From contig NZ_KB899420.1 of NCBI RefSeq assembly GCF_000378205.1, positions 1 through 64,000 on the forward strand: 64,000 nucleotides of DNA. The letters are read 5' to 3'. Under the pieces are notes generated by a model. It was not told where the DNA came from, did no database searches, and was given only the letters and a program-made list of their open reading frames with translations. Every line of letters starts with the position of its first letter. Position 1 is the first letter of the stretch. The translations under genes were made by a program, and so were the position numbers. Origin of the DNA: Sediminispirochaeta bajacaliforniensis DSM 16054. Lineage in GTDB: Bacteria; Spirochaetota; Spirochaetia; DSM-16054; Sediminispirochaetaceae. Of this stretch, positions 10,219 through 45,185 are shown piece after piece.

Positions 10219-10920
10219 TTACGCCTTTTTTCCCATGGTTTCATTTTTACTTGTCTGTAAGTTAGATTGATATGTTTTTTGCGCACGATTTTTGAATGAT
10301 TCTATATGTTCTTGCATCTCGGTTTTCATGCCATCGAAATCTCTATCAAGTAGCTTTTTGTAAATCTCTTTATGCTGATGAACACTAACAGAAAGACGAT
10401 TTGTTTGTATATCGGCAACGGCATGAAGGTTTTCGACAATATCGGTAAGCCAGAATTCCGATACTGAATTATAGATTATCTGGTGAAACATCATGTCAAT
10501 TTTTTTATATTCATTTTGATTGGTATTGACCTTCTCTTCCGCTTCCTGGAAATGAACTTCCAACAGCTTTATAACTTCATCAATTTTATCATCAGATAAA
10601 TTTCTCATCTTATCGATAGTATATAGTTCAAGGCACTTTCTAATATCAATGGCTTCTTCTATTTCTTTCCATTGAGGACTTCTTACTCTATAGCCCTTCC
10701 AATGCTCTTTTTCTACAAGATGGTTTCGTACCAGGTTGGATAAAGCCTCCCTAACCGAATTCCTGCTCGTTCCAAATTGTCGTGATAATTCTTCGTCATT
10801 TAATCGGTCGCCGGGTTTCCATGTCCCTGAAATAATCCCTTCATAAAGGATATCATAAACCATATTCGCCTTGTTCATCTTTTTTAGCGGATAAGCATTA
10901 TTCTCAAATCGATTTTCCAT
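10219..10920 (-). CDS. GntR-family regulator with FCD ligand domain
   Basis: Winged helix KPGDRLNDEELSRQFGTSRN followed by VREALSNLVRNHLVE, then an all-helical FCD domain with DMMFHQIIYNS and HQHKEIYKKLLDRD. The frame extends to a TTG at 10974 that lies inside an operator-like palindrome; I use the ATG at 10920 (233 residues). No start has a clear ribosome site, and the ATG at 10878 is also possible. FCD regulators usually sense organic or sugar acids. The gene is divergent from the TTT/KARI-like operon and most likely controls it through the AAATTT repeats between them. Confidence 0.85.
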   Translation of the reverse strand: MENRFENNAYPLKKMNKANMVYDILYEGIISGTWKPGDRLNDEELSRQFGTSRNSVREALSNLVRNHLVEKEHWKGYRVRSPQWKEIEEAIDIRKCLELYTIDKMRNLSDDKIDEVIKLLEVHFQEAEEKVNTNQNEYKKIDMMFHQIIYNSVSEFWLTDIVENLHAVADIQTNRLSVSVHQHKEIYKKLLDRDFDGMKTEMQEHIESFKNRAQKTYQSNLQTSKNETMGKKA

Positions 10921-10962
10921 AACGTTATTTAATCGTGATTGATGAAAAAAATCAATAACATC

Positions 10963-11023
10963 TTGAAATTTCAAATTTGAAATTTGAAATTTGTTGACAA
11001 CACGACAAAACCGAGTTTAGAAT
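10963..11023 (+). promoter_or_regulatory. Operator repeats and promoter of the TTT/KARI-like operon
   Basis: Overlapping palindromes TTGAAATTTCAA (10963-10974) and TTCAAATTTGAA (10970-10981) continue into another AAATTTG unit. They run up to a sigma-70 promoter, TTGACA (10994-10999), 18 bases, TAGAAT (11018-11023). A regulator bound to the repeats would abut the -35 box. The divergent GntR gene is the likely source of that regulator. Confidence 0.72.
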
Positions 11024-11051: not shown

Positions 11052-12065
11052 TTGGCGAAGGCTTATTTTGATGATGATGCAAATTTGGATGAGTTAAAAA
11101 ACAAAACGGTTGCGGTTATCGGATATGGTAATCAAGGCCGTTCTCAAGCCTTAAATATGCGTGATAGCGGAGTTAACGTGATCGTCGGCAACATTAAGGA
11201 CGGAGCAAGCTGGACACAGGGGAAAAAAGATGGGTTCGAGGTGTATAGTATCTCAGAGGCAAGCAAAAGAGCAGATATTTTGTTTCTCTTGATTCCAGAT
11301 GAAATTATGCCTTCGGTTTACGATGAAGACATTGCTCCATATATTGAGGACGGCAATGTAATCAATTTTGCAAGCGGATACAATGTACACTTTGGCTTTA
11401 TCAAACTGCCGGAAACTGTAGATATAATACTCATTGCACCAAGAATGATAGGAAAAGGAGTTCGGGACCGTTTTGTAAGCGGAGAAGGTTTTCCGAGTCT
11501 GGTGGCAGTTCATCAGGATTCCACCGGAAAAGCAAAGGCGACAATGCTTGCCTTGGCAAAAGCGATAGGCACAACAAAGATCGGAGCATTTGAATCAAGT
11601 TTTGAAGAAGAAGCCGTTGTAGATCTTTTCGGCGAACAGGTTATGGGAGGATTCAAACTCTATAATTTGAGAATGGCCTATGAACTGCTTGTTGAGGAAT
11701 ACGGTTTCAGTCCCGAGTCAGTATTGCTTGAATTGTATCTTTCCGGAGAAGGTATTGAAACCTTACGGAATGCTCAGGAAGTCGGAATTTGGGGACAGCT
11801 TAGATACCATTCCACAACCAGTCAGTACGGACACCAGACAAGAGGGAAATATGCGGCCAGTGATGAATCCAGGGCCTTACTCAAAAGTATTGTCGAGAAT
11901 ATAAAATCAGGCGAATTCAGCAAAGAATGGAAAACGGAACAGTTAACAGGATATCCTGTTTTCAATCGATTATGGAAGGATAATCTAAAGCATCCTTTTA
12001 TTAAATCCGAGCAGGATTTGTTAAAAATATTGAATGCAAACAAAAGAAAGGAGGATGAGAAATGA
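11052..12065 (+). CDS. Ketol-acid reductoisomerase-like NAD(P) oxidoreductase, divergent catalytic site
   Basis: 337 residues, TTG start six bases after GGAGG. The N-terminal Rossmann domain has VAVIGYGNQGRSQALNMRDS and LIPDEIMPSVY, clearly IlvC-like. The C-terminal knotted domain retains DLFGEQ (191-196) with the Mg-binding Asp and Glu, and STTSQYG (254-260). But the FAHG catalytic His is Ser (FASGYN, 106-111), the APKGPG Lys is Arg (APRMIGKG), and the second metal motif (ECLHE in the family) reads ELYLSGE. Normal KARI makes branched-chain amino-acid precursors. Here the gene leads a transporter/dehydratase operon, which suggests another 2-oxo-acid or hydroxy-acid substrate. Function is inference. 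Confidence 0.82.
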   Translation: MAKAYFDDDANLDELKNKTVAVIGYGNQGRSQALNMRDSGVNVIVGNIKDGASWTQGKKDGFEVYSISEASKRADILFLLIPDEIMPSVYDEDIAPYIEDGNVINFASGYNVHFGFIKLPETVDIILIAPRMIGKGVRDRFVSGEGFPSLVAVHQDSTGKAKATMLALAKAIGTTKIGAFESSFEEEAVVDLFGEQVMGGFKLYNLRMAYELLVEEYGFSPESVLLELYLSGEGIETLRNAQEVGIWGQLRYHSTTSQYGHQTRGKYAASDESRALLKSIVENIKSGEFSKEWKTEQLTGYPVFNRLWKDNLKHPFIKSEQDLLKILNANKRKEDEK

Positions 12066-13036
12066 AAAAATTTCTACTATTTTCGTTTAGTCTTTTTATC
12101 ATTGTGGGGCTCAGCAGCACTTTTGCAAATGGGGATCAGGAAAAGCCATTTCCTTCAAAACCCGTTACAATTTTAGTTCCTTTCGCTGCCGGTGGGACCG
12201 CCGATACAAATGCCAGGGCATTGTCAGTGGTAGCGGAAAAGTACTTAGGACAGCCGCTCTTAATTGTTAATAAACCGGGCGGAGGAGCATTGATTGCAGC
12301 AAACGAATTTGCCTACGACACAAAAAACGATGGTTATACATTATGGTATGGAACATGGTCTCCATATATTTTGGCACCGCATTTAGGGCTTGTAGATTAT
12401 GAATACGATGCCTTTCAACAGGTATGCGCCATGACTGACAGCCCTATGGCGCTTACTGTCAGGGCAGATTCTCCATACAACTCACTTGGGGACTTGCTTA
12501 CGGCAATAAAAAATAATCCGGGAAAGATAAAAGCCGGAACATTGGGCGCAGCTAACTCTCTTTCATTGGTTTTTACAATGATTGGTATGGAAGCTGGTGC
12601 TGAAATAGGAAAAGTGCCGTATGACGGTGGAGCAGAAACGGTTCCCGCTTTATTAAAGGGCGATGTGGATGTCATAATTCAAAATCCTGCAGAAACGATG
12701 GAATATGTGGAGGCTGGCTCTTTGAAGTATCTGGCAATACCATCATTAAAACGGTCAAGTTATTTTCCGGAAATCCCTACCTTTATTGAAGAAGGGATAG
12801 ATATAGTGAATTCTGCCTATAAAGGTTTTTATGTTCCCAAAGGTACTCCTCAGGAAAGAATAGATATTCTGGCTGAGGCTTTCAGACAAATGTCTCAGGA
12901 TGAGAAATTCATTGAAGTTATGGAAAGAACAAAGCAGGAAATTGTTTGGGCTCCAGCTGAAGATCTGAAAAAACTTGATGATCAAATGCGTGATAATTTT
13001 GGTAAGGCTGTACAAGCAGCAGGCTTAAGCAAGTAA
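12062..13036 (+). CDS. TctC-type solute-binding protein of a TTT transporter
   Basis: 324 residues; its ATG overlaps the preceding stop by four bases. A signal peptide ends near SSTFANG. The mature protein begins PFPSKPVTILVPFAAGGTAD and continues with VNKPGGGALIAANEFA, the standard Bug/TctC pattern. LVPFAAGGTAD and AGTLGAANS form the carboxylate-binding loops. It binds an organic or sugar acid in the periplasm and passes it to TctAB (13111-15072). The adjacent dehydratase and dehydrogenase point to a sugar acid. Confidence 0.92.
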   Translation: MKKFLLFSFSLFIIVGLSSTFANGDQEKPFPSKPVTILVPFAAGGTADTNARALSVVAEKYLGQPLLIVNKPGGGALIAANEFAYDTKNDGYTLWYGTWSPYILAPHLGLVDYEYDAFQQVCAMTDSPMALTVRADSPYNSLGDLLTAIKNNPGKIKAGTLGAANSLSLVFTMIGMEAGAEIGKVPYDGGAETVPALLKGDVDVIIQNPAETMEYVEAGSLKYLAIPSLKRSSYFPEIPTFIEEGIDIVNSAYKGFYVPKGTPQERIDILAEAFRQMSQDEKFIEVMERTKQEIVWAPAEDLKKLDDQMRDNFGKAVQAAGLSK

Positions 13037-13110: not shown

Positions 13111-13584
13111 GTGGAAGATAAGAAAGATCTGGTAACCGGGATAGGTTTTTTTTCCCTGGGAATGTTCCTTCTCATACAGTCTTTACTATTGGAAAACTAC
13201 AAAGGTGTAGTGGCAGGAACTGACCCTGGAATAAAATTTCTTCCGATCATTATATCGATACTCCTGATTCTGGATAGTATCCTTCTAATAACAACGAATA
13301 TTATCAAGGCGAGAACGAAAAAAATAGAAAAAAACAATAATTCGATATCCATCCTTGAAATAATAGATAGAAATAAAAAGTTATTTTTAACTGTAGCCAT
13401 TCTGATAGTATTTCCTTTTATATTAAAACCAGCTGGATTTTTGATTTCCGTATCTGTTTTTACTTTTTTGCTGCTTAGAATACTATCAAATTCCAGATGG
13501 TATAAGAGTGTTATCACTTCATTACTGATAACACTCCTTTGTTATGCTGTCTTCGGGTATCTATTTAAAATACCTCTGCCATGA
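13111..13584 (+). CDS. TctB-type small membrane subunit of TTT transporter
   Basis: 157 residues, GTG start with AAGGA upstream. Four hydrophobic segments (for example FFSLGMFLLIQSLLL, PIIISILLILDSILL, LFLTVAILIVFPFIL, VITSLLITLLCYAVFGY) match the four-helix TctB subunit. The GTDPGIKFLP motif before helix 2 is typical of TctB. It partners the large TctA-type subunit that follows 18 bases downstream. Confidence 0.88.
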   Translation: MEDKKDLVTGIGFFSLGMFLLIQSLLLENYKGVVAGTDPGIKFLPIIISILLILDSILLITTNIIKARTKKIEKNNNSISILEIIDRNKKLFLTVAILIVFPFILKPAGFLISVSVFTFLLLRILSNSRWYKSVITSLLITLLCYAVFGYLFKIPLP

Positions 13585-13602: not shown

Positions 13603-15072
13603 ATGAGTAATTTCTTACAAGCACTGTTATTAGTTTTTAATATAAAAACCTTCGCATTTATTTTCTTCGGCACCTTTGTAGGTATCGTTTTCGGAGCTCT
13701 TCCGGGTCTTACCGCAGTGATGGGTGTAGCATTGTTGATGCCGCTTACATTTTTCATGCCGGCACACTATGGGTTGCCGATGCTTATTGCTGTGTATTGT
13801 GGGGGGATCTATGGAGGCTCCATAACGGCAATTCTGCTAAATACACCAGGCACCCCGGCATCCGCAGCAACAACCCTTGACGGATATCCAATGGCCAAAC
13901 GAGGAGAGCCTGGCAAGGCATTATCAATTGCTGTAATAGCCTCTGGTTTCGGCGGAATCGTAAGTGTTATTGTTCTGACTTTTTTATCTCCGATACTAGG
14001 CAAAATAGCACTGGCATTCGGCCCTATAGAGTATTTTTCTCTTATACTTATCGGGGTTGTTCTTATTGGCTTTTTGTCAAGCGACTCCATATTCAAGAGC
14101 GTAATTGCGGCATTGATGGGGTTTGTCCTTTCCTTTATCGGTATGGATCCTATTCTTGGACTGCCAAGATTTGACTTCGGAAATTACCATCTTTTTCAAG
14201 GAATTTCGTTAATACCTGCCGTTATCGGTCTCTTTGCCATATCAGAAGTTTTTGTCATGATAACAAACATACAGACAGCAACAGATGATATAAAACCAAT
14301 AAAAAAGGTTACATATGCAAAACCTGAAGTGTTTTTCCGCAATATAAAAACGCTTATAAAAGGTTCCCTTATCGGAACTCTTATAGGTGCCGTACCTGCG
14401 GTAGGCAGCTCTACCGGCGGATGGATTTCTTATGGAGAGGCAAAACGTGCTTCAAAAAATCAGGACAAATTCGGCACAGGATGTGCGGAAGGAATCATTG
14501 CCAGTGAATCAGCAAATAATGCAGTCCCAGGGGGAGCCATGATACCTTTGCTGTCGTTAGGAATTCCGGGAGATCCTGTTACCGCCGTATTACTCGGCGG
14601 CTTGATAATACAAGGATTGACCCCGGGGCCTAATTTTTTCCTTAAGCATGCTGATACTGCGTACATGATATTCATTGCGTTCTTTTTTTCGAACATCGTT
14701 ATGGTTCTTCTTGGGCTGATAGGCGTGAAATTTTTTGCAAAGGTGCTGCATATACCTAAACACCTTCTGGCTACTATTGTAATGATCCTTTCGCTCATAG
14801 GCTGTTACGCAATAAACAACAGCATCTTTGATATCAAAATAGCAATCGTCTTGGGAATCTTTGCTTTTTTGATGAAAAGTGTGAAGGTACCTATTGCGCC
14901 TATGGTTCTGGCACTCGTCTTAGCGCCTATGTTTGAGCAAAATTTAAGACGAGCAATGATACTAACCGAAGGCAGTATCATTCCGTTTTTTCAAAGTCCT
15001 GTTGCCTTGTTTTTCTATGGGCTCTGTATCCTTTTAGTGATAGGTCTGAGGAAAACAAAGAATAAAAGTTGA
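13603..15072 (+). CDS. TctA-type large permease subunit of TTT transporter
   Basis: 489 residues with about 12 membrane segments. It has the TctA signatures GALPGLTAVMGVALLMPLTF, YGGSITAILLNTPGTPASAA and ESANNAVPGGAMIPLLSLGI followed by PGDPVTAVLLGG. It is the ion-driven channel subunit in the inner membrane, working with TctB (13111) and TctC (12062). GGAGG lies before the ATG. Confidence 0.93.
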   Translation: MSNFLQALLLVFNIKTFAFIFFGTFVGIVFGALPGLTAVMGVALLMPLTFFMPAHYGLPMLIAVYCGGIYGGSITAILLNTPGTPASAATTLDGYPMAKRGEPGKALSIAVIASGFGGIVSVIVLTFLSPILGKIALAFGPIEYFSLILIGVVLIGFLSSDSIFKSVIAALMGFVLSFIGMDPILGLPRFDFGNYHLFQGISLIPAVIGLFAISEVFVMITNIQTATDDIKPIKKVTYAKPEVFFRNIKTLIKGSLIGTLIGAVPAVGSSTGGWISYGEAKRASKNQDKFGTGCAEGIIASESANNAVPGGAMIPLLSLGIPGDPVTAVLLGGLIIQGLTPGPNFFLKHADTAYMIFIAFFFSNIVMVLLGLIGVKFFAKVLHIPKHLLATIVMILSLIGCYAINNSIFDIKIAIVLGIFAFLMKSVKVPIAPMVLALVLAPMFEQNLRRAMILTEGSIIPFFQSPVALFFYGLCILLVIGLRKTKNKS

Positions 15073-15125
15073 CAAGAGCATTTGATTATTTTCCTCAGAA
15101 ATTAAAAAGATTACGGAGGCCTAGT

Positions 15126-16253
15126 GTGGGATATTCTATATATATGCCCGTTAATATACAATTCGGCGAGGGTAAGGCAAAACGCATTGATCAATTTTGC
15201 TCTCCGAAAGATAGGATACTTTTTGTATGTGATCCGGTTATTGAACAGATGGGGGTACGAAAAAAACTATCGGATAATTTGAAAAATGGTGATATCTCTG
15301 TTTTCTCTGATGTTGAGCCGAATCCTTCGGTTCATACTGTGAACAAGGCTTTGAGGATAGCTAAAGAAAATAAAATCGATTTATGTATCGGGCTTGGCGG
15401 AGGAAGTTCTATGGATACCGCCAAGGCCGTAGCTTGTATTTCATCTGAGGATGGGAGTTTTGAAGATTATCTGTACGGAAAGCAAGTCGTAAAAAGACGG
15501 AAAAAGCTTATTCTTATTCCGACTACGGCTGGCACAGGAAGCGAGTGTACATGCGTCGGCGTTTATACCGATACAGAAAAAAACAGAAAAACAGGATACC
15601 GAACCCCCTACTTTTATTGTGATACCGCCATTATTGATCCTGAACTTACGTATTCTGTTCCTTCTTCGGTAACAGCGGCAACAGGTATTGATGCTTTTAC
15701 CCATGCTCTTGAAGCATACTGGAATACCAGTTCCAATTCACTATGTCGGGGTGCTGCAATGTATGCCTGCCGGGATGTCCTAAAAAATCTTTATAGCTGT
15801 TATGAAGACCCTCAAAACAAGGCCGCACGCTCTTCCTTGAGTCATGCATCCATGCTTGGGGGCTGGGCTTTTGGCCAGGTCCGGACTACCCTTGTACATG
15901 CGCTCAGTTTTCCTTTTGCCGATTATTTTCATGTTCCGCATGGGATAGCTTGTGCCTTAAGTCTTGTACCGGTAATGAGATATGCAGTTTCGAACGAACC
16001 CGCTTGTTTGGCGGAATTGGCCTGTTTTTGTAGTTATTCATCAACAAAAGATTTTATTACCGATGTTGAAAACATGATTACCAAGATGGATCTGTTATCA
16101 AGTATTCCTGACATACATATATCGCCTGCCGAAATGAGGGACATAGCCGAAAAAGCATGTGCTCTTGAATATGCCCATCTGGTCCCTGGAGATATTGATG
16201 TTGAGCGTTTGACCGTTCTACTACATGATTTTTTAAGGAGAGTCTTCGAGTGA
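15126..16253 (+). CDS. Iron-containing (group III) alcohol dehydrogenase
   Basis: 375 residues from GTG at 15126, preferred because GGAGG (15115-15119) sits six bases upstream. A TTG at 15069 overlapping the TctA stop would add 19 unusual residues. The family motifs are IGLGGGSSMDTAKAVA (NAD site), IPTTAGTGSECT, and the metal ligands in TGIDAFTHALEAYW, TTLVHALSFPF and HVPHG. It probably oxidises or reduces a hydroxy- or oxo-acid derived from the imported substrate. The next gene starts within its last four bases. Confidence 0.9.
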   Translation: MGYSIYMPVNIQFGEGKAKRIDQFCSPKDRILFVCDPVIEQMGVRKKLSDNLKNGDISVFSDVEPNPSVHTVNKALRIAKENKIDLCIGLGGGSSMDTAKAVACISSEDGSFEDYLYGKQVVKRRKKLILIPTTAGTGSECTCVGVYTDTEKNRKTGYRTPYFYCDTAIIDPELTYSVPSSVTAATGIDAFTHALEAYWNTSSNSLCRGAAMYACRDVLKNLYSCYEDPQNKAARSSLSHASMLGGWAFGQVRTTLVHALSFPFADYFHVPHGIACALSLVPVMRYAVSNEPACLAELACFCSYSSTKDFITDVENMITKMDLLSSIPDIHISPAEMRDIAEKACALEYAHLVPGDIDVERLTVLLHDFLRRVFE

Positions 16254-17440
16254 AAATTACAAGCATTGAGGTTGTGAAAGTAAATACCGGCGTTAGCAAA
16301 AGGGTTGAAGGTGTGCCATGGAATCCTATTGTTGTCATGGTACATACCGATGAAGGAATAACCGGTTTCGGAGAAATCGGTCTAGCATATGGAAATGCCG
16401 GGGATGCTGGATTTGGTATGGCAGTTGATTTTGCGAAGCTTATCATTGGGATGGACCCAATGAATAATGAAGAAATATGGTCAAAAATATTTAGAAGCAC
16501 GTTCTGGGGAATGGGCGGCGGTACTGTTGTGTTTGGCGGTATTAGTGGAATCGATATTGCGCTATGGGATATAAGGGGAAAAGCCTTAAACGTTCCAGTT
16601 TATCAACTGCTGGGAGGTAAAACAAATAAAAAGTTAAGAGCCTATGCAAGCCAGCTGCAATTTGGATGGGGCACGGAAAGCAAGGCTATGATTACTCCCG
16701 ATGATTATGCCTGGGCAACGCAAAAAGCTCTGGATAACGGATATGATTGTGTTAAGGTCGACCCGATTGGTTTTGACCTGGATGGCAACTGGATGAAAGG
16801 GAAAACAACCGGCCTTCTGGAAAACAAGCAAATTTCTACTGCGGTCGACAGAGTAAGAGCAATGAGAGAAGCGGGCGGCAAGAATATGGATCTGATAATA
16901 GAACTCCATTCACTTACAGATACAAATTCCGCAATCCAGCTGGGTAGGGAATTGGAGCAGTTCAACTGTTTCTATTATGAAGAACCCACAATGCCTTTGA
17001 ATGCTGAGCTCATGAAAGAGATAGCAAATAGTGTGAAGATTCCTCTTGCAAGCGGGGAAAGAATATACAGCAGATGGGGCTACAGACCATTCTTTGAAAA
17101 CAGATCTCTTTCCATTATTCAGCCAGATCTTGGATTAGTCGGAGGAATCACTGAAGGCAAGAAGATTTGTGATATGGCCAATGTATATGATATAGGAGTT
17201 CAGGTTCATATCTGCGGTGGACCAATTGCAAAAGCAGCAGCATTGCAACTGGAAGCCGTAATACCCAATTTTGTTATCCATGAGCATCATTCCGGAGCAC
17301 TTTTACCACATAATATTAATAGCTGCAAATATGATTATCAGCCGAAAGATGGTTATTATGAAACACCTGATTTGCCAGGGATAGGTCAGGAACTTACCGA
17401 AGAAACAATAAAGGCGTCAGAGAAAGTGGTAATACAATAG
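16250..17440 (+). CDS. Enolase-superfamily (mandelate racemase/muconate lactonizing type) sugar-acid dehydratase
   Basis: 396 residues, GTG start with GGAG upstream. The N-terminal capping domain contains TDEGITGFGEIGLAYGNAG. The barrel has DCVKVDPIG, IIELHS (first metal Glu), FYYEEPT (second) and LASGERIY (third), then HICGGP and HEHHSG near the C-terminus. The ELHS/HICGG layout resembles the mannonate/galactonate dehydratase group, which dehydrates sugar acids to 2-keto-3-deoxy acids. It closes the operon led by the KARI-like gene. Exact substrate not determined. Confidence 0.87.
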   Translation: MKITSIEVVKVNTGVSKRVEGVPWNPIVVMVHTDEGITGFGEIGLAYGNAGDAGFGMAVDFAKLIIGMDPMNNEEIWSKIFRSTFWGMGGGTVVFGGISGIDIALWDIRGKALNVPVYQLLGGKTNKKLRAYASQLQFGWGTESKAMITPDDYAWATQKALDNGYDCVKVDPIGFDLDGNWMKGKTTGLLENKQISTAVDRVRAMREAGGKNMDLIIELHSLTDTNSAIQLGRELEQFNCFYYEEPTMPLNAELMKEIANSVKIPLASGERIYSRWGYRPFFENRSLSIIQPDLGLVGGITEGKKICDMANVYDIGVQVHICGGPIAKAAALQLEAVIPNFVIHEHHSGALLPHNINSCKYDYQPKDGYYETPDLPGIGQELTEETIKASEKVVIQ

Positions 17441-18606: not shown

Positions 18607-18705
18607 ACGGGGTTCCTTAAATCTACAGACATATTCTGAAACCAATCCAGTGCGTTTACTATACCATCTATACTAATTCTTTTATAGATGATCAGCTCTG
18701 TTTCT

Positions 18706-18840
18706 ACCCCAATCGCGGCAGGGATTGGAGGGGTGCCGCAGGCAGACCCCGCAGGGGCCACGGGCCCCGAGGAGGCCGGAGCGATAGCGGAGCCCCGCAA
18801 AGCCCGGTCCGAGCGGCCAGCGAGGAGCCGCCCAAAGTCA
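18706..18840. repeat. GC-rich palindromic intergenic element
   Basis: An abrupt ~130-base GC-rich island with short inverted arms, for example GGGGCC (18754-18759) and GGCCCC (18763-18768), and ACCCCGCAGGGG. It ends in CGGTCCGAGCGG...GGAGCCGCC. The pattern of CGGTCCGAG...GAGCCG recurs, less exactly, in the 28999 and 35704 repeats. The phosphatase frame happens to stay open through it, but the true start lies after it. I think it is a dispersed element; copy number elsewhere is unknown. Confidence 0.5.
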
Positions 18841-18897
18841 TTCACAAATCGGGAAGATAGTAGCATACTGGAGTTATCGAACAGACAGGAGGTTGAT

Positions 18898-21342
18898 ATG
18901 AAAAGAAGTCGAAATCTGGTGCTTGCGGTTTCGTCGCTATGGCTCTTCTTTGCACTGACCGCAGGTTTGGCGGCACAGTCGCCCCAGAGCGAGTTTCAAG
19001 AGGTCGCGGGAAGTGTGGCGAGCATCAGCAAGTATGGGAATTTGGAATTGGATATCAAGCCCTCGGCGCTTTATCAGGCGGGCTATGAGCTTGGCGATGT
19101 GCTGAACATTTCCATCGGAGAAGCGACGGTGCAGGCGCCGTTTTGTACGTCCTACAGTGATGTGGATACCGGTAGTCCATTGGTACGGGACGACAAAAAA
19201 AACGACCTGCTGATCATCGCCATCAATATGGGGAACTTTGCCTCAAGCTACGGGGTAGCAGAGGGAGATGCGGTAACCCTTTCCATGGAGGAAAAGGGAG
19301 CCTATCTCAGTGAGTATCTTCTGCGTCAGCTGAAGCGGAGCAACGATCGGGCCGACTACGCCTCGGATTCTATTTTTGCAAATTTCCGCAACATTCCCTT
19401 CGGTGATATTGCACCGGGACTCCTGTTTCGAAGCAGCAGCCCCGCGAACAACGAGCTCGGCCGTGCGGCCTATGCCGATGAGCTGACAAAGGCTTTTAAA
19501 ATCAGGACGGTGATCAATCTCGCAGATTCGAAAGAGGAGCTGGAAGGCTTCTTCGCCGGAAAGGATTTCGCCTCGCCCTACTACAAATCGCTCTACGATG
19601 CGGGCCAGGTAAGTTTCCTGGACATGGGGGTCGATCTGACATCCGATGATTTCGGTGCAAAGCTCGCCGAGGGGCTTCGTTTCATGATCTCCCACGAAGG
19701 TCCCTACCTCGTTCACTGTACCGAAGGGAAGGATCGCGCGGGCTTTGTCAGCGCCCTTTTGGAAAGCCTCATGGGGGCCTCTCTCGACCAGGTTGTCGGG
19801 GATTATATGCGTACCTACGAGAACTACTACAAGGTGGAGCCAGGCAGCGAGCAGTACGAGGCCATTGCCGAAAGCAATATCAAAACATCCCTCGCGACCA
19901 TCATCGCAGATCGGCCCAAGGGCAGCGACCTTGCGGAAATCGACCTCACCACAGCCGCACAATCCTACCTGCTCGGTATCGGACTGACGAGTGATGAGAT
20001 CTCGGCCCTGAAAACGCGGCTTTCCACGGCTGTCGAACAGGATGCCGTCTCCATATCGGGAACGGTCCGCGAAATCGAAAAGTACGGTCACACCTCCACG
20101 GACATTACAATCGCTGATTTCTACGACAAGGGCTTTGCGCTTGGCGATATGGTGACCGTTACGTACAACAACGGCTATGCCATGGAGGCTCCCTTTCTGG
20201 ATGGCTACTATGTGGAAAACGGTCAGCCCCTGGTTCGGGCCTATCCCGGCCACGAGGATATCGCCGTCTGCATCAACTACGGAAAACTGTACCAGGTTGC
20301 GGATGTAAAGGTGGGGGACAGGCTTACCATCACCTTGAGCCAAAAGGGAGGTTATCTCGACGAATATTCGGTCAGGAGCCTCAAGCGGACCAACGATCGG
20401 GAAGACTATTACTCGGACCGGGTTTTTGCAAACTACCGAACCATCACCGAGGGCGATATCGACGCAGGTATCCTCTATCGTAGTTCCAGCCCCATCAATC
20501 CGGAGCTTGGGCGTGCGGCCTATGCGGATAAGCTCATAGCCGCCGACGGGATAGCAACGGTGGTCAACCTGGCGGACAGCGAGAGCGAAGTCGAGGGCTA
20601 TATTGCCGGTAAGGATTTTGCCTCTCCCTATTATGCCGATCTGTTTCACAGGGGCCAGGTTATAACCCTTGGGATGGACCTTGCCTACGCGGGAGAGCAG
20701 TTTCGCTCCGACGTTGCCGAGGCCGGCCGCTTTATCATCGGCCACGAGCCTCCCTACCTCATTCACTGTACCGAGGGGAAGGACCGGGCCGGTTTTGTAA
20801 GCGCCCTGCTGGAGTCCCTCATGGGAGCCACCCCCGACGAAATTGTTTCCGACTATATGACCAGTTACATCAACTACTACAAGATCGAGCCGAACGGCGA
20901 TACCTACGCGGTCATCACCAAGGATATTCTGGGGATGCTCAGGACCATCGCAGGAAGCGACGAGATTGCAGGCGCAGACCTTTCGGCAGGAGCGGCAGAC
21001 TATCTGATTTCAGGTGGTATGAGCGGTGATGAGGTAAAGCAGCTGAAACGCATCCTCTCAGGAGCTGCTCAAGCAACGGCAGCCGTCGCAGAAACGACAG
21101 CCGACACGGGAGCGGCGGGAGAGCCCGATGCAGCTGCGGCACCGGAGGCCTCAGAGCCTGCAGCAAGCGAAGTCCCACACGCCATCTATACCGTGGGTTC
21201 TGGTGACAGTCTCTGGAAGATATCCCGCAGGCTTTTGGGGACCGGTTTCCGGTATCAGGAGATCTACGATGCAAATAAGGAAAAGATACAGGATCCCCGG
21301 CTGATCTATGCGGGGCAGGAGTTTGTTATTCCTGCTCGATAG
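18898..21342 (+). CDS. Secreted tandem tyrosine-phosphatase-like protein with C-terminal LysM
   Basis: 814 residues from ATG at 18898 after AGGAGG. The frame is open further upstream but only through the GC-rich repeat. A signal peptide covers 1-29. Two repeats of ~350 residues follow. Each has a beta-rich domain (SISKYGNLELDI..., then SYSDVDTGSPLVR) and a phosphatase domain with FANFRNIPFGDI, LFRSSSP and the CX5R loop HCTEGKDRAG (Cys274 and Cys624). An Ala/Glu-rich linker (~715-760) leads to one LysM (764-814: YTVGSGDSLWKISRRLLG). The loop resembles the Y_phosphatase3/LipA-like dual-specificity or lipid phosphatases. The beta domain resembles the SAM hydroxide adenosyltransferase C-terminal domain. 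LysM should anchor it to peptidoglycan. Substrate unknown. Confidence 0.85.
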   Translation: MKRSRNLVLAVSSLWLFFALTAGLAAQSPQSEFQEVAGSVASISKYGNLELDIKPSALYQAGYELGDVLNISIGEATVQAPFCTSYSDVDTGSPLVRDDKKNDLLIIAINMGNFASSYGVAEGDAVTLSMEEKGAYLSEYLLRQLKRSNDRADYASDSIFANFRNIPFGDIAPGLLFRSSSPANNELGRAAYADELTKAFKIRTVINLADSKEELEGFFAGKDFASPYYKSLYDAGQVSFLDMGVDLTSDDFGAKLAEGLRFMISHEGPYLVHCTEGKDRAGFVSALLESLMGASLDQVVGDYMRTYENYYKVEPGSEQYEAIAESNIKTSLATIIADRPKGSDLAEIDLTTAAQSYLLGIGLTSDEISALKTRLSTAVEQDAVSISGTVREIEKYGHTSTDITIADFYDKGFALGDMVTVTYNNGYAMEAPFLDGYYVENGQPLVRAYPGHEDIAVCINYGKLYQVADVKVGDRLTITLSQKGGYLDEYSVRSLKRTNDREDYYSDRVFANYRTITEGDIDAGILYRSSSPINPELGRAAYADKLIAADGIATVVNLADSESEVEGYIAGKDFASPYYADLFHRGQVITLGMDLAYAGEQFRSDVAEAGRFIIGHEPPYLIHCTEGKDRAGFVSALLESLMGATPDEIVSDYMTSYINYYKIEPNGDTYAVITKDILGMLRTIAGSDEIAGADLSAGAADYLISGGMSGDEVKQLKRILSGAAQATAAVAETTADTGAAGEPDAAAAPEASEPAASEVPHAIYTVGSGDSLWKISRRLLGTGFRYQEIYDANKEKIQDPRLIYAGQEFVIPAR

Positions 21343-38861: not shown

Positions 38862-39821
38862 TCATGTATTTACCCAGTTTTGGGGTTCTTTTCCATTCAG
38901 AACATCGATGACGGCTTGTGCCGTACAGAGACTTACCGCAGTGTAGGTCTCAAAGGTTTCGGCCCCTGTATGGGGAGTACAAATAATCTTATCTACGGCA
39001 ATAAGCCGGCTCTCCTTCGGCAGGGGCTCCGTCTCAAAAACATCAAGAGCAGCCCCACCGAGGTGCCCGGCCTCAATGGAATCGCACAATGCTTCGCTAT
39101 CGACCAAAGCACCTCGCGCGGTATTAATGAAATAGGCCCCCTTTCGCATCTGGGCAAACGTATCCCTATTCATATAATGGCGGGTCTCCTTGGTACTAGG
39201 AATATGGATACTGACAATGTCGCTTTCCGCAAGAAGAGCCTTTTCATCCACAAGGGTAACGCCCAGCGCCGCTGCCGCCTCCCTGTTCGGAAACAGATCG
39301 CACGCAAGAATCCTCACCTCAAACCCCGACAATTTTTTTGCGACACGGCGGGCAATATCCCCAAAACCAAGCAAGCCAACGGTTTTCCCCTTTAGATCGT
39401 GTCCCACGGCCCGACTCCAAACCCCCTTGCTGAGATCAGCATTGAGGCGAATGGTATTCCTTGCCATGTCAAATATGTACCCAACGGCAAGCTCCGCCAC
39501 TGCATTGGCGTTCATGCCGAGAGCGTTGGTTACCTTGATGCCTCGCTGCCGGGCCGCGGATAGATCGATATTATCTATTCCGACACCAAAGCGGGCTATA
39601 GCCTTGAGCCTCGGGGCAAGAGCGAAAATTTCCTCATCCCATCGATCCATTCCGATGATCGCAGCATCAATATCCGCCACCAGAGGACGTAGCTGCTCGA
39701 AAGAATAATAGGGCATGTCACTCTTATTGAGAACAACCGTATGTCCCGCTTTTTCAAGCATCTCCTTTGCAGGTGCACACAATTGCGCATAGTGAGATGC
39801 CGTTATCAGTATTTTCCCCAT
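38862..39821 (-). CDS. D-2-hydroxyacid dehydrogenase (SerA/GyaR-like)
   Basis: 319 residues. VGLLGFGDIARRVAKKL (NAD site), substrate and catalytic residues in RFGVGIDNID, NTARGALVDSEAL, ALDVFETEPL and CTPHTG give the Arg-Glu-His triad. Oxidises D-2-hydroxy acids or reduces 2-oxo acids such as glyoxylate or hydroxypyruvate with NAD(P). It lacks the ACT domain of biosynthetic SerA enzymes. Last gene of the second TTT operon, so a catabolic role on the imported acid is likely. Confidence 0.88.
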   Translation of the reverse strand: MGKILITASHYAQLCAPAKEMLEKAGHTVVLNKSDMPYYSFEQLRPLVADIDAAIIGMDRWDEEIFALAPRLKAIARFGVGIDNIDLSAARQRGIKVTNALGMNANAVAELAVGYIFDMARNTIRLNADLSKGVWSRAVGHDLKGKTVGLLGFGDIARRVAKKLSGFEVRILACDLFPNREAAAALGVTLVDEKALLAESDIVSIHIPSTKETRHYMNRDTFAQMRKGAYFINTARGALVDSEALCDSIEAGHLGGAALDVFETEPLPKESRLIAVDKIICTPHTGAETFETYTAVSLCTAQAVIDVLNGKEPQNWVNT

Positions 39822-39824
39822 AAT

Positions 39825-40256
39825 TTAGATATACTCCTTCATTCGATCGACCAATATGTGTAGAGCTGCATCGTCAAGCAGCAACGGCTTTGCCTCATCC
39901 ACGGCAAAGGGAACTCCCCATTGCTTCCCATCCCGATATTTCGGGCAAAGGTGAATGTGCATGTGTTCGGAGGTGTCTCCAAGAATAAGAATGTTCACTT
40001 TATCCGGGCTCAAGGCCTTGGTGATAGCTAAAACGGAAGTATGAATATCTCCCATCAACGCCATGTACTGTTCACGTGAAAGCTCCGTTATTTTCCGTAG
40101 GTGTTCCTTGTAAGCGAAGATGCACCTTCCGCGGTGTGTTTGGTCACGATGCAGATAGAGCGTTCCCGTCGGAAAACTTGCGATCTCCCTGACAACTTTC
40201 TCCAGAGCCTCGTCCCTGTCACACCAGATGCATTGATCCACATCTTTCGTATCCAT
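39825..40256 (-). CDS. HIT-family nucleotide-binding hydrolase
   Basis: 143 residues. The histidine triad reads EHMHIHLCP near residues 102-110. An N-terminal CIWCDRDE resembles the zinc-binding CxxC of some HIT proteins, and HRDQTHRGRCIF is the family core strand. HIT proteins hydrolyse or transfer nucleoside phosphates. Its start overlaps the TctA stop (TAATG), so it belongs to the TTT operon; its role there is not obvious. Confidence 0.85.
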   Translation of the reverse strand: MDTKDVDQCIWCDRDEALEKVVREIASFPTGTLYLHRDQTHRGRCIFAYKEHLRKITELSREQYMALMGDIHTSVLAITKALSPDKVNILILGDTSEHMHIHLCPKYRDGKQWGVPFAVDEAKPLLLDDAALHILVDRMKEYI

Positions 40257-41773
40257 TACGCATTAATCCTGCGGCTCTTTCGCTCCGCCAGTTTACGTTT
40301 GATGATGGGGAAAAAGAGAGGATAGAATAAAGAAACGATTCCGATGATCAGCAGAACACAGGAAATGGGCCGCTGGAAAAATATCCATGCATTTCCATCG
40401 GACAGGGCCATCGCCCTTCGGTAATTGTTCTCGATTGTCGCGCCCAGGATCAGTCCCAGAATGATAGGAGGAATGGAAAATTCCATTTTGATGATGAAAT
40501 ATCCAAGGATACCGCAGATAATCATCAGGTAGACATCGTTAATGTTATGATTGATCGCGAAGGTTCCGACAAAGCAGAAAACGAAAATGATGGGAGTCAT
40601 CAGGTGATTGGGAACATTGACAATCTTTGAGAAAAACTTGATACCGCTGAAGCCTATGATTGCCATGAAAACATTGGCAAAGAACAATCCCACGATGATG
40701 AGATAGACCTTTTCGGTTTGTTCGGTGAACAGTAACGGCCCAGGGCTTATACCCTGCATCATCAAGGCACCCAACATAATTGCGGTACAGGCATCACCGG
40801 GAATTCCCATGGTGAGAAGGGGAATCAAGGCCCCGCCGCTTATGGCATTGTTTGCGGCTTCCGGAGCTGCAATGCCGTCGGGAGCTCCGTCGCCGAACTT
40901 CTCGGGATGCTTGGACCAGCGCTTTGCCTCGTTGTAGCCGACCCAGGCGGCAATATCGCCACCTGTCCCCGGTATCGCACCTATCAAGGTACCGATAAGG
41001 CTGGAACGAACAAGAGACGGAAAAATTGTCTTGATATCCTGTCTGGATGGAAAGATCCGCTCTATCTTTGTCTTTTGTACCTCTTCCTTCTTTTTATTGA
41101 AGGTTTCTTCAACGGTAATAAGCCCCTGAGAAAATGCAAATAAACCAATGAGAACCGGAATAAAGGAGATGCCTCCCGAAAGATAGATCGTCCCAAAGGT
41201 CAATCGGAAATCTCCGGTAAAGCTGTCCATGCCGATCGTTGCAAGCAACAAACCAAGGATGGCTCCGATGATTCCCTTCAGCATACTCGTGCTGGATACA
41301 CTGGTAACCACCGATAAGCCAAACACAGCCAGGGCAAAGTATTCCGGTGCACTGAACTTCAGAGCGACCTTTGCCAACAGGGGGGCCGTTATCAATAACA
41401 TAACGGAAGAAAACATCCCCCCGAAGGTAGAGCCTGTAGTGGAAATAGAAAGGGCACGACCGGGCTGCTTGTATTTGATTGCCATGGGATTCCCATCAAG
41501 GCAGGTAGCAGCCGAATTCGCCGTTCCTGGAGTATTCAAGAGAATTGCGGTGACCGACCCCCCATAGATTGCCCCACAGAAAATCCCCAGCATCATCATG
41601 ATGCCGTTTGAACCGGAAAGCGAGAGGGTAAGAGGAAGCATAATCGACATGCCCATAACAGAAGATAAGCCGGGCATGACACCGACCCAGACCCCACAGA
41701 GAGCCCCCGAAAATAACGACAAAAGGCTCGCCGGACTAATAACCGATGCTAAAGCTTGGAAGAAAGCGCTCAT
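40256..41773 (-). CDS. TctA-type large permease subunit of second TTT transporter
   Basis: 505 residues. Signatures VMPGLSSVMGMSIMLPLTLS, YGGSVTAILLNTPGTANSAA and PEAANNAISGGALIPLLTMG followed by PGDACTAIMLGAL. Around 12 membrane segments. It differs clearly from the TctA at 13603, so the two TTT systems are paralogous but not recent duplicates. Confidence 0.93.
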   Translation of the reverse strand: MSAFFQALASVISPASLLSLFSGALCGVWVGVMPGLSSVMGMSIMLPLTLSLSGSNGIMMMLGIFCGAIYGGSVTAILLNTPGTANSAATCLDGNPMAIKYKQPGRALSISTTGSTFGGMFSSVMLLITAPLLAKVALKFSAPEYFALAVFGLSVVTSVSSTSMLKGIIGAILGLLLATIGMDSFTGDFRLTFGTIYLSGGISFIPVLIGLFAFSQGLITVEETFNKKKEEVQKTKIERIFPSRQDIKTIFPSLVRSSLIGTLIGAIPGTGGDIAAWVGYNEAKRWSKHPEKFGDGAPDGIAAPEAANNAISGGALIPLLTMGIPGDACTAIMLGALMMQGISPGPLLFTEQTEKVYLIIVGLFFANVFMAIIGFSGIKFFSKIVNVPNHLMTPIIFVFCFVGTFAINHNINDVYLMIICGILGYFIIKMEFSIPPIILGLILGATIENNYRRAMALSDGNAWIFFQRPISCVLLIIGIVSLFYPLFFPIIKRKLAERKSRRINA

Positions 41774-41794
41774 TGTTCTCCTCGATATAATTGG

Positions 41795-42253
41795 CTAATA
41801 GAAAAGCTTCCCTTTGGGCAAAACCAAGCCCAAAGCCACTGCGAATATGACATAAATGCTTATGGTGATTGCAAAGCTTGCAATGCAGATCTTTGGTATA
41901 CTTCGCACGCCCATGATCCACATAACCAGTACAACAAAAAGCAATGACGAAGGTAGAAAGCCGATAAAATTAAGTCCAACACCGAAGAGAATCATCACGG
42001 CAAACAATTTAACGACCTGGCGAAAGCCCTTCGCCTTGAAATCAATCAGATGATCGGCAAGTTGTTTCCGTGTGAATATCGTCGTTACAGCAAGCAGCGT
42101 GGAGACGAAAATGAGCAAGACACCAAGAATTCTCGGCCAGAAGCCTGGTCCCGGGGTTCCATTTACAATTGGGTCAAATCCGCCGGAATAATGAATCACA
42201 TAGATCCCGACACAGATGAGCAGTATCGCGGTTCCGATATTATATTTTTTCAC
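41795..42253 (-). CDS. TctB-type small membrane subunit of second TTT transporter
   Basis: 152 residues from GTG at 42253, eight bases after AAGG; the frame reaches a TTG at 42289 inside an intercistronic hairpin, an unlikely start. Four hydrophobic segments (IGTAILLICVGIYVIHYSGG, ILGVLLIFVSTLLAV, LFAVMILFGVGLNFIGF, ITISIYVIFAVALGLVLP) and GTPGPGFWPRILG match TctB. Confidence 0.87.
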   Translation of the reverse strand: MKKYNIGTAILLICVGIYVIHYSGGFDPIVNGTPGPGFWPRILGVLLIFVSTLLAVTTIFTRKQLADHLIDFKAKGFRQVVKLFAVMILFGVGLNFIGFLPSSLLFVVLVMWIMGVRSIPKICIASFAITISIYVIFAVALGLVLPKGKLFY

Positions 42254-42271
42254 GTACGTCACCTTGATGAG

Positions 42272-42308
42272 GAGTGAACGGCGGCGCAAAAAGGGCTACC
42301 GTTCACTC
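42272..42308 (-). other. Intercistronic stem-loop after tctC-type gene
   Basis: GAGTGAACG (42272-42280) and CGTTCACTC (42300-42308) form a 9-base stem with a 19-base loop between the binding-protein stop and the TctB start. Same position as the hairpins after other binding-protein genes here. Confidence 0.6.
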
Positions 42309-42315
42309 GTTTCGA

Positions 42316-43287
42316 TTATTTGACAGAGATATCCTTGCAAAGCTTCGAATAGAGTTTCAGCTGATCGGCAAGGAAGGCCTTAGTCTCCGCCCCATCCATA
42401 TTGATTGTCTGCATTCCCATGGTTTTCAGCGTTTTCTGGAATGCATCAGAATCGATTGCAGGCCGTAAAACGTTTCGCAGATATTCCACCTTTGCAGGAT
42501 CTACATCGGCCTTGGCAGAAATAATGCAGAAGCCGGGCATGAAGAAATCGATATCTGCATAACTCTCTTTCATGGTGGGCACATCAGGGTAGGTGGAAAG
42601 CCGCTCTTCGGACATCGATGCAAGGAAACGGAGGTTCCCGGCTTGAACTTGCGATGCCGCATTGACGGTTTGGGCGATGGTTGCATTGATATGTCCGCCG
42701 ACGATGGCGGTCACGCAGTCCGCACTCCCTCCATAGGATACCGTCTTGAACTTGACATCGAAAAACTGCTCGATGGCAAGGACCGCAAGCGAGGGAGCCG
42801 CACCCATTCCGGTTTCTCCAATAACAATCTCATTCGGATGAGCCTTTGCATATTCGATGAACTCTTCGAAGGTTGTATACGGCGCATCGGCAGCCGCAAT
42901 CAGCACAAAGGGATCGATCAGGGCGCAGGCAATAGGCTCAAAGTCTTCTACGGAAATCTTGGTTCGCCCCAGGCAGTAGTTGATGACGAGGTCGGTGTTA
43001 AGCACGCCGAGGGTGTAACCGTCGGAGGGAGAGGTGACAACCTGGTTCAGTCCGATGAGGCCGGCACCTCCGGTAACATTGGAAACGGCAAAATTGGTAC
43101 CGGAAGGAAGCGTTTCCTTCGCTGCATCAAGAACGCCACGAACGGACAGGTCCGTTCCACCGCCGGCAGAATACTGAACGATAACGTTGATGTTCTGATT
43201 CGGGTATTCCTTTTCTCCATTCGCGAAAACCTCGCCGGAGAACAGCAGGAATGTTACGATCAGGGCCAGGAAAACTCTTTTCTTCAT
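42316..43287 (-). CDS. TctC-type solute-binding protein of second TTT transporter
   Basis: 323 residues, ATG after AAAGGAGC. The signal peptide ends near GEVFANGEK. The mature part reads YPNQNINVIVQYSAGGGTDL, VTGGAGLIGLNQVV and GETGMGAAPS, the Bug fold carboxylate loops. It feeds TctBA downstream. Upstream genes are a TIM-barrel isomerase, a Gfo/Idh oxidoreductase and an SDR, so the ligand is probably a sugar acid. Confidence 0.92.
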   Translation of the reverse strand: MKKRVFLALIVTFLLFSGEVFANGEKEYPNQNINVIVQYSAGGGTDLSVRGVLDAAKETLPSGTNFAVSNVTGGAGLIGLNQVVTSPSDGYTLGVLNTDLVINYCLGRTKISVEDFEPIACALIDPFVLIAAADAPYTTFEEFIEYAKAHPNEIVIGETGMGAAPSLAVLAIEQFFDVKFKTVSYGGSADCVTAIVGGHINATIAQTVNAASQVQAGNLRFLASMSEERLSTYPDVPTMKESYADIDFFMPGFCIISAKADVDPAKVEYLRNVLRPAIDSDAFQKTLKTMGMQTINMDGAETKAFLADQLKLYSKLCKDISVK

Positions 43288-43327
43288 ATATTGCTCCTTT
43301 GTATCCCTTTCGGGAAAGAATTGCTGA

Positions 43328-44218
43328 TTATTTCAGATCTCGAATGATCTTTCGCAGAAATGCGGCACTCTGCTTCATTCCAAGCGATGCGTCGGGAATA
43401 TCCTGCGGATGCCATCGCCGCTCATATTCAAGCGACAACCAGCCGTTGTAACCTCGATCTTTAAGCATCTGCAGGATTGCTGGCCAGTCAAGGATTCCCT
43501 CTCCGACAATTCGGGTCACGACCTTCCGCTCCTCCTCCTGAGGGTGTGATACATCAGATGATGAGAAGGTGTGGTCATTTCCCCTGAAGACAAAATCCTT
43601 AACATGAACATACCAGCTCTTGTCGAATTGCAGAGGAATGGCCGTTTCGTATTCTTCGTTTCCGGTAAATGTCAGATTTGCCTGATCGTAGAGAATACCT
43701 ACCGAAGGATGGTTAATAGCATAGGAAATATCAACACTTTCCCGGGCCGATACGGTCATGGTATTAAAGTGATTTTCCAGCACCAGAGAGACCCCATGCT
43801 TCTTGGCAATCTCCCCTAGGAAACGAAGACTTTCCACCAGACAGCCGCGCTTTTTCCCGTCTTCATCCCTTTCGTCCTGACCGAAGTTTCCACCATACAG
43901 GCGGATGTACTTGGCCCCCAGAATTTCTGCGTATGTGATAACCTTGCAAATGCCTTCGATTTCTTTTTCCCGGATACCCTCGTCAAGATCGTTGAACCGG
44001 GAAAAATAGGGAGTCAGACAGGGAATCTCAAGGGACAGATCTTTTGCAAGACGGGATAACTCCCGAAGCGTATCAGTGGATGTCTTTTCCTCCAGTGCAC
44101 AGCGGTAACCATCCTGAACAATGATCTCGGCTCCGTCGAGTCCAATCTTCTTGAAGAGCCGAAGAGCATCCCCGAGTGAATACTCGGGGGTTCCCATCGT
44201 ATGACCGGCAATCTTCAT
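43328..44218 (-). CDS. Sugar phosphate isomerase/epimerase-like TIM barrel
   Basis: 296 residues of the AP endonuclease 2/xylose isomerase-like fold. Metal ligands are visible in SLVLENHFNT (Glu), GILYDQANLT (Asp), YVHVKDF (His) and LSLEYERRW (Glu). Members are epimerases, isomerases or dehydratases of sugars and inositols (IolE, IolH, Hyi and others); I cannot choose between them. It lies between the Gfo/Idh oxidoreductase and TctC genes. Confidence 0.85.
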   Translation of the reverse strand: MKIAGHTMGTPEYSLGDALRLFKKIGLDGAEIIVQDGYRCALEEKTSTDTLRELSRLAKDLSLEIPCLTPYFSRFNDLDEGIREKEIEGICKVITYAEILGAKYIRLYGGNFGQDERDEDGKKRGCLVESLRFLGEIAKKHGVSLVLENHFNTMTVSARESVDISYAINHPSVGILYDQANLTFTGNEEYETAIPLQFDKSWYVHVKDFVFRGNDHTFSSSDVSHPQEEERKVVTRIVGEGILDWPAILQMLKDRGYNGWLSLEYERRWHPQDIPDASLGMKQSAAFLRKIIRDLK

Positions 44219-44222
44219 TCGC

Positions 44223-45167
44223 CTACTCCAGGTCGGGGAGGCCAGCGGCCTTGAGAATTTTATGCATCAGGAGATGAGTTTTAAAGGAATCCGCTGCATT
44301 GGTAAGCATCGTCTCTCCTGCTTCGAGGCAGGAGAAAAAGTGCTCGTCTTCGGCACGAAATCCCATCTTATCAGCGACCTGAGCCCAGCCCATGGCAAGA
44401 GGCGTCATGTCGGTGGTATGGCTCTCCTCATGGTCCACGACAGTTACGGTATCGGGACAGTTGACAAGGACGCTCTTGTTATGGCCGTGCATCTGGAATG
44501 TCTCCACCCATTGCCCGCTTGCGCGATCGGCGACAAGCATACCGACGGTACCGTTCGAAAAAGTCATTTGCGCCGTCGCAAGGGTTTCATAATAAGGGTC
44601 CGTAAATTTAGAAATTGCCTGGACATCCTCACACTCACCGCAAAAGTAGCGCAGGAGATCCACCATATGGATGGCATTCTCCAACGTTGCACGATATTCC
44701 GATGCCGGCCTATTTTTCTGGGCTATGATGACATCGGGAGACAAGGTTCCGTATACTTCCTTTGCCTTTCGATATACAGGAGCATAACGGCGGTTAAAAC
44801 CGATCATCAAGGCCTTGCCGCTTTTTTCCGAGGCCTCAACCATTTCCTCCATTTCGGAAAGGCTGCATCCCATGGGTTTTTCGCTGAACACATCGAGGCC
44901 GGCGTTGAGTAACGCAAGCACATGCTCATGGTGACATTCCTTGGGAGAGAGGACAAAGGCACAATCGAGGCCAAGCTCAATCAGCTGTTCGATGTTTTCT
45001 ACGGCATGGGAAATGCCGTACCTCTCTTTTGCGCTTTGGGCACTGGCAAGACGTTTTGCGATAACACCGACCAGTTCAACATTATCCATCTCCGAAAGAA
45101 TCGGCAGATGGGCATTCTCTGCAATCGAGCCGCATCCCACCAGCCCGACTCTGAATTTCCTTTTCAT
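44223..45167 (-). CDS. Gfo/Idh/MocA-family NAD(P) oxidoreductase
   Basis: 314 residues from ATG at 45167 (GGAG six bases upstream); an ATG four codons earlier sits too close to its own AAGGAG. VGLVGCGSIAENAHLPIL is the NAD site. SEKPMG contains the catalytic Lys, and GFNRRYAPVYRKAKE follows. The usual catalytic His region is not clear. It probably oxidises a cyclic sugar, inositol or sugar acid in the cytoplasm. Confidence 0.88.
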   Translation of the reverse strand: MKRKFRVGLVGCGSIAENAHLPILSEMDNVELVGVIAKRLASAQSAKERYGISHAVENIEQLIELGLDCAFVLSPKECHHEHVLALLNAGLDVFSEKPMGCSLSEMEEMVEASEKSGKALMIGFNRRYAPVYRKAKEVYGTLSPDVIIAQKNRPASEYRATLENAIHMVDLLRYFCGECEDVQAISKFTDPYYETLATAQMTFSNGTVGMLVADRASGQWVETFQMHGHNKSVLVNCPDTVTVVDHEESHTTDMTPLAMGWAQVADKMGFRAEDEHFFSCLEAGETMLTNAADSFKTHLLMHKILKAAGLPDLE

Positions 45168-45185
45168 GCGTTTCTCCATGTCTCC

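Follow-up and report, generated by a model that had tools for sequence, protein, structure and literature searches.

A ketol-acid reductoisomerase paralogue from an old, widespread clade heads a putative sugar-acid operon in Sediminispirochaeta bajacaliforniensis

The window analysed here is the first 64,000 nucleotides of contig NZ_KB899420.1 from Sediminispirochaeta bajacaliforniensis DSM 16054. At positions 11052-12065 of its forward strand lies an open reading frame for a 337-residue protein resembling ketol-acid reductoisomerase (KARI, IlvC), which starts at a TTG codon with GGAGGA 5' of it. The frame is followed on the same strand by genes for TctC, TctB, TctA, an iron-containing alcohol dehydrogenase (Fe-ADH), and an enolase-superfamily dehydratase (MR_MLE), in that order, and is preceded by a divergent regulator gene.

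10219..10974, minus strand: GntR/FCD regulator, divergent (Pfam PF00392, PF07729); retained in the orthologous locus of genome G003
11052..12065, plus strand: KARI-like (IlvC-fold) oxidoreductase of the variant clade, 337 aa, TTG start (Pfam, NCBIfam, AlphaFold)
12062..13036, plus strand: TctC solute-binding protein of a tripartite tricarboxylate transporter (TTT; Pfam PF03401)
13111..13584, plus strand: TctB small membrane subunit (Pfam PF07331)
13603..15072, plus strand: TctA large membrane subunit (Pfam PF01970)
15069..16253, plus strand: iron-containing alcohol dehydrogenase (Pfam PF00465, PF25137)
16250..17440, plus strand: enolase-superfamily acid-sugar dehydratase (MR_MLE), galactonate/mannonate dehydratase-like

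The Pfam assignments, together with 4-bp overlaps at the KARI/TctC, TctA/Fe-ADH, and Fe-ADH/MR_MLE junctions, bear out the preliminary description of this DNA, which made the KARI-like gene the first of an operon with a TTT importer, an Fe-ADH, and an enolase-superfamily dehydratase. A genome of the same genus (L039) has the complete set in identical order, with a KARI that is 96% identical, and the divergent GntR/FCD protein likely regulates the KARI-TctCBA operon. The MR_MLE dehydratase did not reach the equivalog cut-off of any NCBIfam model. Because the operon holds neither an aldolase nor a kinase, its substrate cannot be read from its gene content. Elsewhere in the window, positions 38862-47134 form a second sugar-acid module, its members named from sequence reading: TctA/TctC, an SDR, a Gfo/Idh-type dehydrogenase, a TIM-barrel epimerase-like protein, a DapA-family aldolase, and a 2-hydroxyacid dehydrogenase. 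The window also encodes a secreted protein of 884 residues (18688-21342), made up of two tyrosine-phosphatase-like halves that repeat each other and a LysM-like stretch at the C-terminus, and a 510-residue protein that resembles the sheath protein of a contractile tail and seems to stand by itself among genes of metabolism (55190-56722).

The product of the first gene is a full-length KARI-fold protein. It exceeds both curated Pfam cut-offs, with 217 bits for KARI_N (cut-off 20.6) and 104 bits for KARI_C (cut-off 29.1), and scores 288 bits against the NCBIfam ilvC model TIGR00465 (cut-off 226). Its AlphaFold model (pLDDT 95) has the KARI fold and matches KARIs in Foldseek with a TM of ~0.9, the nearest PDB structures being Sso-KARI from Saccharolobus (Sulfolobus) solfataricus and then other KARIs. 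The 4.57-Mb genome encodes three KARIs. A normal ilvC, the presence of which had been raised as a point to check, is among them; its product is 39% identical to the window protein in an alignment, and it lies in a complete cluster with ilvB, ilvD, cimA/leuA, leuC, leuD, and leuB. Valine synthesis is therefore served elsewhere than by the window copy, for which a branched-chain role is disfavoured. The KARI on contig 11 (L004:7972-10500) is of the window type, with FSSG and APRMIG motifs, and has a GntP-type permease gene directly 3' and a GntR gene close by. The same three genes, for KARI, GntP, and GntR, are found together again in other spirochaetes and in Lachnospiraceae. The genome also has two GarK-type glycerate kinases, one of which adjoins GntR and GntP permease genes. 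On contig 1, a single run of genes (L194:2349-7227) encodes a GntR regulator, a metallo-beta-lactamase-fold protein, a GntP permease, and a glycerate kinase, and is likely a glycerate-uptake locus.

Relatives of the window protein were sought by scanning genome contigs with a family-specific alignment, which found 262, of which 80 loci were kept; the majority of these yielded full-length proteins. Their hosts include Spirochaetota, Bacillota, Chloroflexota, Acidimicrobiia, Alphaproteobacteria, Acidobacteria, haloarchaea, and Asgards, among others. An order-wide search of 299 genomes around Compostibacillus added only one further relative, and a scan of viral contigs found none. A match on an Alkalihalophilus plasmid was rejected as a variant, being a canonical KARI within an ilv operon. 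In a maximum-likelihood tree of 114 proteins, the 73 variants are separated from 41 canonical KARIs by one branch with 100% SH-aLRT support, although the variants were collected by a motif-based search and intermediates may be under-sampled. Relative to the canonical enzymes, N27, D50, R131-M132, S231 within an insertion, and Q258 are fixed in all 73 variants, and the window protein falls inside the variant branch and carries every one of them. It can thus be placed, as a KARI paralogue, in a clade that is old and widespread. Sso-KARI (PDB 6jcv) also lies inside this clade (98* with L078/L114).

The main residues that distinguish the clade, and the metal ligands, map to the window as follows.

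11199..11201, plus strand: codon of Asp50, beta2-alphaB cofactor loop; Asp in 73/73 clade members, Gly in 30/41 canonical KARIs
11373..11375, plus strand: codon of Ser108 (canonical catalytic His); in the clade, Ser in 56, His in 14, Thr in 3
11442..11447, plus strand: codons of Arg131-Met132, in place of canonical Lys130-Gly; shared by 73/73 variants, the canonical KARIs having Lys (41/41)
11622..11636, plus strand: DLFGE, first metal-ligand pair D191/E195; invariant
11730..11750, plus strand: E227-x5-E233, the second pair of metal ligands, set further apart by two inserted residues; every clade member has S231, which canonical KARIs lack

Alignment with the genome's own ilvC product confirms two motif changes that had been read from the sequence, FAHG to FASG (S108) and APKGPG to APRMIG (R131, M132, I133), so that the catalytic His107 of canonical enzymes (in FAHG or FSHG) is replaced by Ser108 and the catalytic Lys130 by Arg131. 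The retention of the KARI fold and of DLFGEQ (D191, E195) was likewise correctly described. The ExxxE metal motif had been called rearranged, and it has indeed changed, from E226xxxE230 to E227xxxxxE233, but both glutamates are kept and two residues are inserted between them; the motif is therefore lengthened rather than lost. All of the canonical Mg ligands and the associated serine (D190, E194, E226, E230, and Ser251) have counterparts in the window protein (D191, E195, E227, E233, and S254), and T256 is retained as well. The protein thus resembles canonical class I KARIs (EC 1.1.1.86; Sac-KARI, PDB 5yeq; the Pseudomonas enzyme, PDB 1np3) in fold, metal carboxylates, Ser251, and length, but differs from them in the change of Lys130 to Arg and of Gly-Pro to Met-Ile, the two-residue insertion, Asp50, Asn27, Gln258, and the lack of an ilv operon context. 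The loss of the catalytic histidine, which headed the preliminary description, holds for the window protein. As the defining mark of the clade it is ruled out, because 14 of the 73 members keep the histidine, as do the haloarchaeal KARIs that adjoin an enolase-superfamily gene and that have R131-M132, D50, and the insertion. The two altered catalytic side chains could also be taken to mean that the protein is a degenerate or non-catalytic paralogue. This explanation is highly improbable, given that the metal ligands and the clade-specific residues are invariant in bacteria and archaea alike and that the operon, including its 96% identical KARI, is retained between species. Across the clade all four metal carboxylates are retained, position 227 being Asp in five members. 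The fold, the two-Mg2+ carboxylate site, and the dinucleotide site are kept, as seen in the sequence, the model, and the Sso-KARI structure.

Asp50 belongs to the beta2-alphaB loop, which in canonical KARIs binds the phosphate of NADP, and the invariance of this residue in the clade suggests that the variant KARI probably uses NAD(H). The NAD-using KARI relative BurG excludes NADP through Asn48 and Asp51 (PMC9359912); the equivalent residues of the window protein are N47 and D50, and NADH use is predicted from this match. BurG is a cyclopropanol synthase that also converts hydroxypyruvate to glycerate with NADH (PMC9359912). It sets a precedent for a KARI paralogue with a new job and, like the window protein, stands in a separate clade with a normal ilvC elsewhere in its genome. 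Unlike the window protein, BurG belongs to specialised secondary metabolism, and its structure (7pcc) scores 183 bits against that protein, less than most canonical class I KARIs do; the content of the window operon is not that of a gonydiol/malleicyprol cluster, and a BurG-type cyclopropanol synthase is not indicated. As the IlvC paralogues of Streptomyces demonstrate, a KARI paralogue can diverge and can act as a promiscuous reductase (PMC4353338), but these arose by recent duplication and retain the ability to complement an ilvC mutant, in contrast to the deep branch on which the window KARI lies.

The genome neighbourhoods of the variants differ from those of canonical KARIs. An ilvB gene lies within 8 kb of 0 of ~75 variant loci, as compared with 9 of ~16 canonical control loci drawn from a subset of the same genomes, and a clear canonical KARI is also present in 31 of 46 host genomes. 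Near the variant loci we found GntR regulators (14), MDR alcohol dehydrogenases (10, mostly in Acidimicrobiia), GntP permeases (9), aldehyde dehydrogenases (7), Fe-ADHs (4), TRAP transporters (3), and glycerate kinases (2), with GntR and GntP together at nine loci. Over the small canonical set, GntR is enriched (p=0.035) and the other families are individually not significant. Homologues therefore lie outside ilv operons, a location that would have counted against the preliminary reading, and sugar-acid genes often adjoin them. The same description had envisaged a separate clade marked by FASG and by TctABC neighbours. The clade exists, but FASG is not universal in it and TctABC neighbours were seen only in the window genus: no KARI-TTT pairing was found outside that genus among 296 spirochaete genomes or the 80 other loci, where the importers near relatives are GntP, TRAP, or ABC.

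Several of these neighbourhoods contain sugar-acid or glycerate genes. The Compostibacillus locus encodes a TRAP transporter, D-galactonate dehydratase (695 bits), RpiA, a PfkB kinase, the KARI, an FAH hydrolase, ketoglutarate-semialdehyde dehydrogenase, and a YjhG xylonate dehydratase. A Sulfitobacter locus has GntR, KARI, aldehyde dehydrogenase, TRAP, and glycerate 2-kinase genes, and a locus in a Clostridia metagenome-assembled genome (MAG) has glycerate kinase, KARI, and CdaR. For high-GC loci, gene content was taken from annotated plasmid records, because long spurious open reading frames masked the real genes. In Haladaptatus, the cluster includes, besides the KARI and its MR_MLE neighbour, a GarL-like aldolase, an enolase, a kinase, a lactaldehyde-reductase-like Fe-ADH, and a sugar ABC importer, and Halomarina has a similar cluster. 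Contexts are nonetheless diverse, and no sugar-acid genes were identified close to many of the members from Acidimicrobiia, Asgards, and Acidobacteria. The closest non-spirochaete sequences (L040 and L078/L114) have functionally mixed neighbourhoods and were left out of the argument from context. In Clostridiales (L103, L080; L101 is also listed), the variant KARI adjoins a glycyl-radical enzyme and its activase, and at L103:2496-9726 a molybdopterin DMSO-reductase-type protein comes after it. Haloarchaeal and Sulfitobacter megaplasmids (L152-L157, L178, L179) carry variant KARIs that are mostly annotated ilvC with valine-biosynthesis GO terms. There is good support for treating the variants as a KARI subfamily of their own that occurs in catabolic contexts, and members across bacteria and archaea probably reduce sugar-derived keto acids. 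Searches of the literature for KARI with TTT, with mandelate racemase, or for Sso-KARI yielded no paper on the role of the clade.

Sso-KARI, an archaeal protein, is the best match of the window KARI by both sequence and fold, with 48-50% identity and the same FASG, APRM, DLxxE, and E-x5-E motifs and cofactor-loop Asp. It is deposited as 'Putative ketol-acid reductoisomerase 2' (6jcv and 16 further PDB entries). In a 2019 paper in JACS, it is reportedly described as an acetolactate KARI of cofactor bispecificity that uses NADH and NADPH; it is not known to have a sugar-acid role. The window protein could, by analogy, be a second functional, NAD(H)-using IlvC that acts on acetolactate and either happens to sit in a catabolic operon or serves under other conditions, and its score above the NCBIfam ilvC cut-off agrees with this. 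So does the finding that seven of seven tested Asgard genomes (G304, G306, G313, G314, G321, G322, and G338), all of them MAGs whose completeness is not established, have only the variant KARI together with ilvD above cut-off. In these genomes, however, all acetolactate-synthase matches fall below cut-off, and the Asgard variant may possibly act in branched-chain synthesis or in another pathway. Given the Sso-KARI report and the Asgard genomes, part of the clade may have a role in making branched-chain amino acids. In the case of the window protein, the complete ilv-leu cluster of its own genome, the absence of ilvB near variant loci noted above, and the replacement of the catalytic Lys by Arg throughout the clade argue against such a role, and we regard it as an appreciable but minority possibility. 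The earlier suggestion of a new reaction for the IlvC fold is, with Sso-KARI inside the clade and published as a KARI, unproven. The preliminary interpretation is thus supported in part: the clade, the separate ilvC, and the non-ilv context stand, whereas the histidine mark, the TctABC association, and the new reaction find no support in the form proposed.

The neighbouring dehydratase invites comparison with the order of the valine pathway, in which IlvC is followed by IlvD. The adjacent enolase-superfamily enzyme might form a 2-keto-3-deoxy acid from a 2,3-dihydroxy acid made by the KARI-like enzyme. KARI-like and MR_MLE genes are linked in the spirochaete, in Compostibacillus, and in haloarchaea, where on plasmids the MR_MLE gene is directly upstream of KARI on the same strand and ends ~60 bp before it. 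Such a dehydratase gene is found near only three variant loci, plus Halomarina, where the ORF caller missed the anchor gene; the majority of the clade has none nearby. The linked MR_MLE enzymes are 25-34% identical to that of the window and belong to different subgroups, and no single shared substrate is therefore implied. This mimicry of the IlvC-IlvD sequence is improbable.

From the operon, the paralogues, and the relatives, we infer that a sugar-derived acid would enter the cell through the TctABC importer under control of the GntR regulator, and that the window KARI would act in its breakdown rather than in valine or isoleucine synthesis. A small hydroxylated ketol acid would be bound between the two Mg2+ ions, and its reduction, either direct or after a 1,2-shift, would yield a 2,3-dihydroxy acid. 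This reading as a whole, in which the protein is a sugar-acid catabolism enzyme working as an Mg2+- and NAD(H)-dependent ketol-acid reductase or reductoisomerase, has in our judgement about an even chance of being right. Given the conserved two-metal site, the substrate would most likely be a ketol acid or a 2-oxo acid that two Mg2+ ions chelate. The earlier proposal that a 2-keto-3-deoxy acid is isomerised appears chemically awkward because the acyloin shift needs a 3-hydroxyl that this substrate lacks, and a 2-hydroxy-3-oxo acid would suit the site better. In tartronate semialdehyde (2-hydroxy-3-oxopropanoate), hydrogens take the place of the two methyl groups of acetolactate, and hydroxypyruvate corresponds in the same way to the KARI intermediate, so KARI chemistry would lead from tartronate semialdehyde through hydroxypyruvate to glycerate. 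This route fits with the glycerate kinase, CdaR, GarL-like aldolase, and enolase genes near relatives and the two GarK-type kinases of the genome itself. The pair tartronate semialdehyde/hydroxypyruvate, reduced to glycerate, is accordingly the one we favour from context and chemistry, but only as a speculative and rather unlikely assignment. Under it, the window KARI would occupy the same pathway slot as GarR, the tartronate semialdehyde reductase, a metal-free enzyme of the beta-hydroxyacid dehydrogenase family and hence of another family than KARI.

The reaction might also run in reverse, as an NAD+-dependent oxidoisomerase acting on an imported branched sugar acid such as D-apionate. D-apionate is a hydroxylated analogue of 2,3-dihydroxyisovalerate and D-apionate oxidoisomerases carry out chemistry of this kind, Asp50 predicts NAD use, and loci with only a GntP importer and KARI would allow direct action on the imported acid. 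We identified no apiose or apionate pathway genes, and the known apionate oxidoisomerase belongs to a different branch of the 6PGDH superfamily; this direction is quite improbable. Returning to the reductive reading, its extension to the clade as a distinct class of NAD(H)-linked, Mg2+-dependent catabolic reductoisomerases of sugar-derived ketol acids, mis-annotated as IlvC, is a tentative proposal that we hold to be possible but doubtful.

Since databases label the variant proteins ilvC, metabolic models assign them to the valine pathway. Should the clade prove catabolic, many genomes would carry erroneous annotations of this kind, the KARI two-metal site would gain a second natural function open to assay, and a naturally NADH-type IlvC scaffold would be available for comparison with engineered NADH-KARIs. 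It would also raise a question over Sso-KARI, the sole clade member with solved structures.
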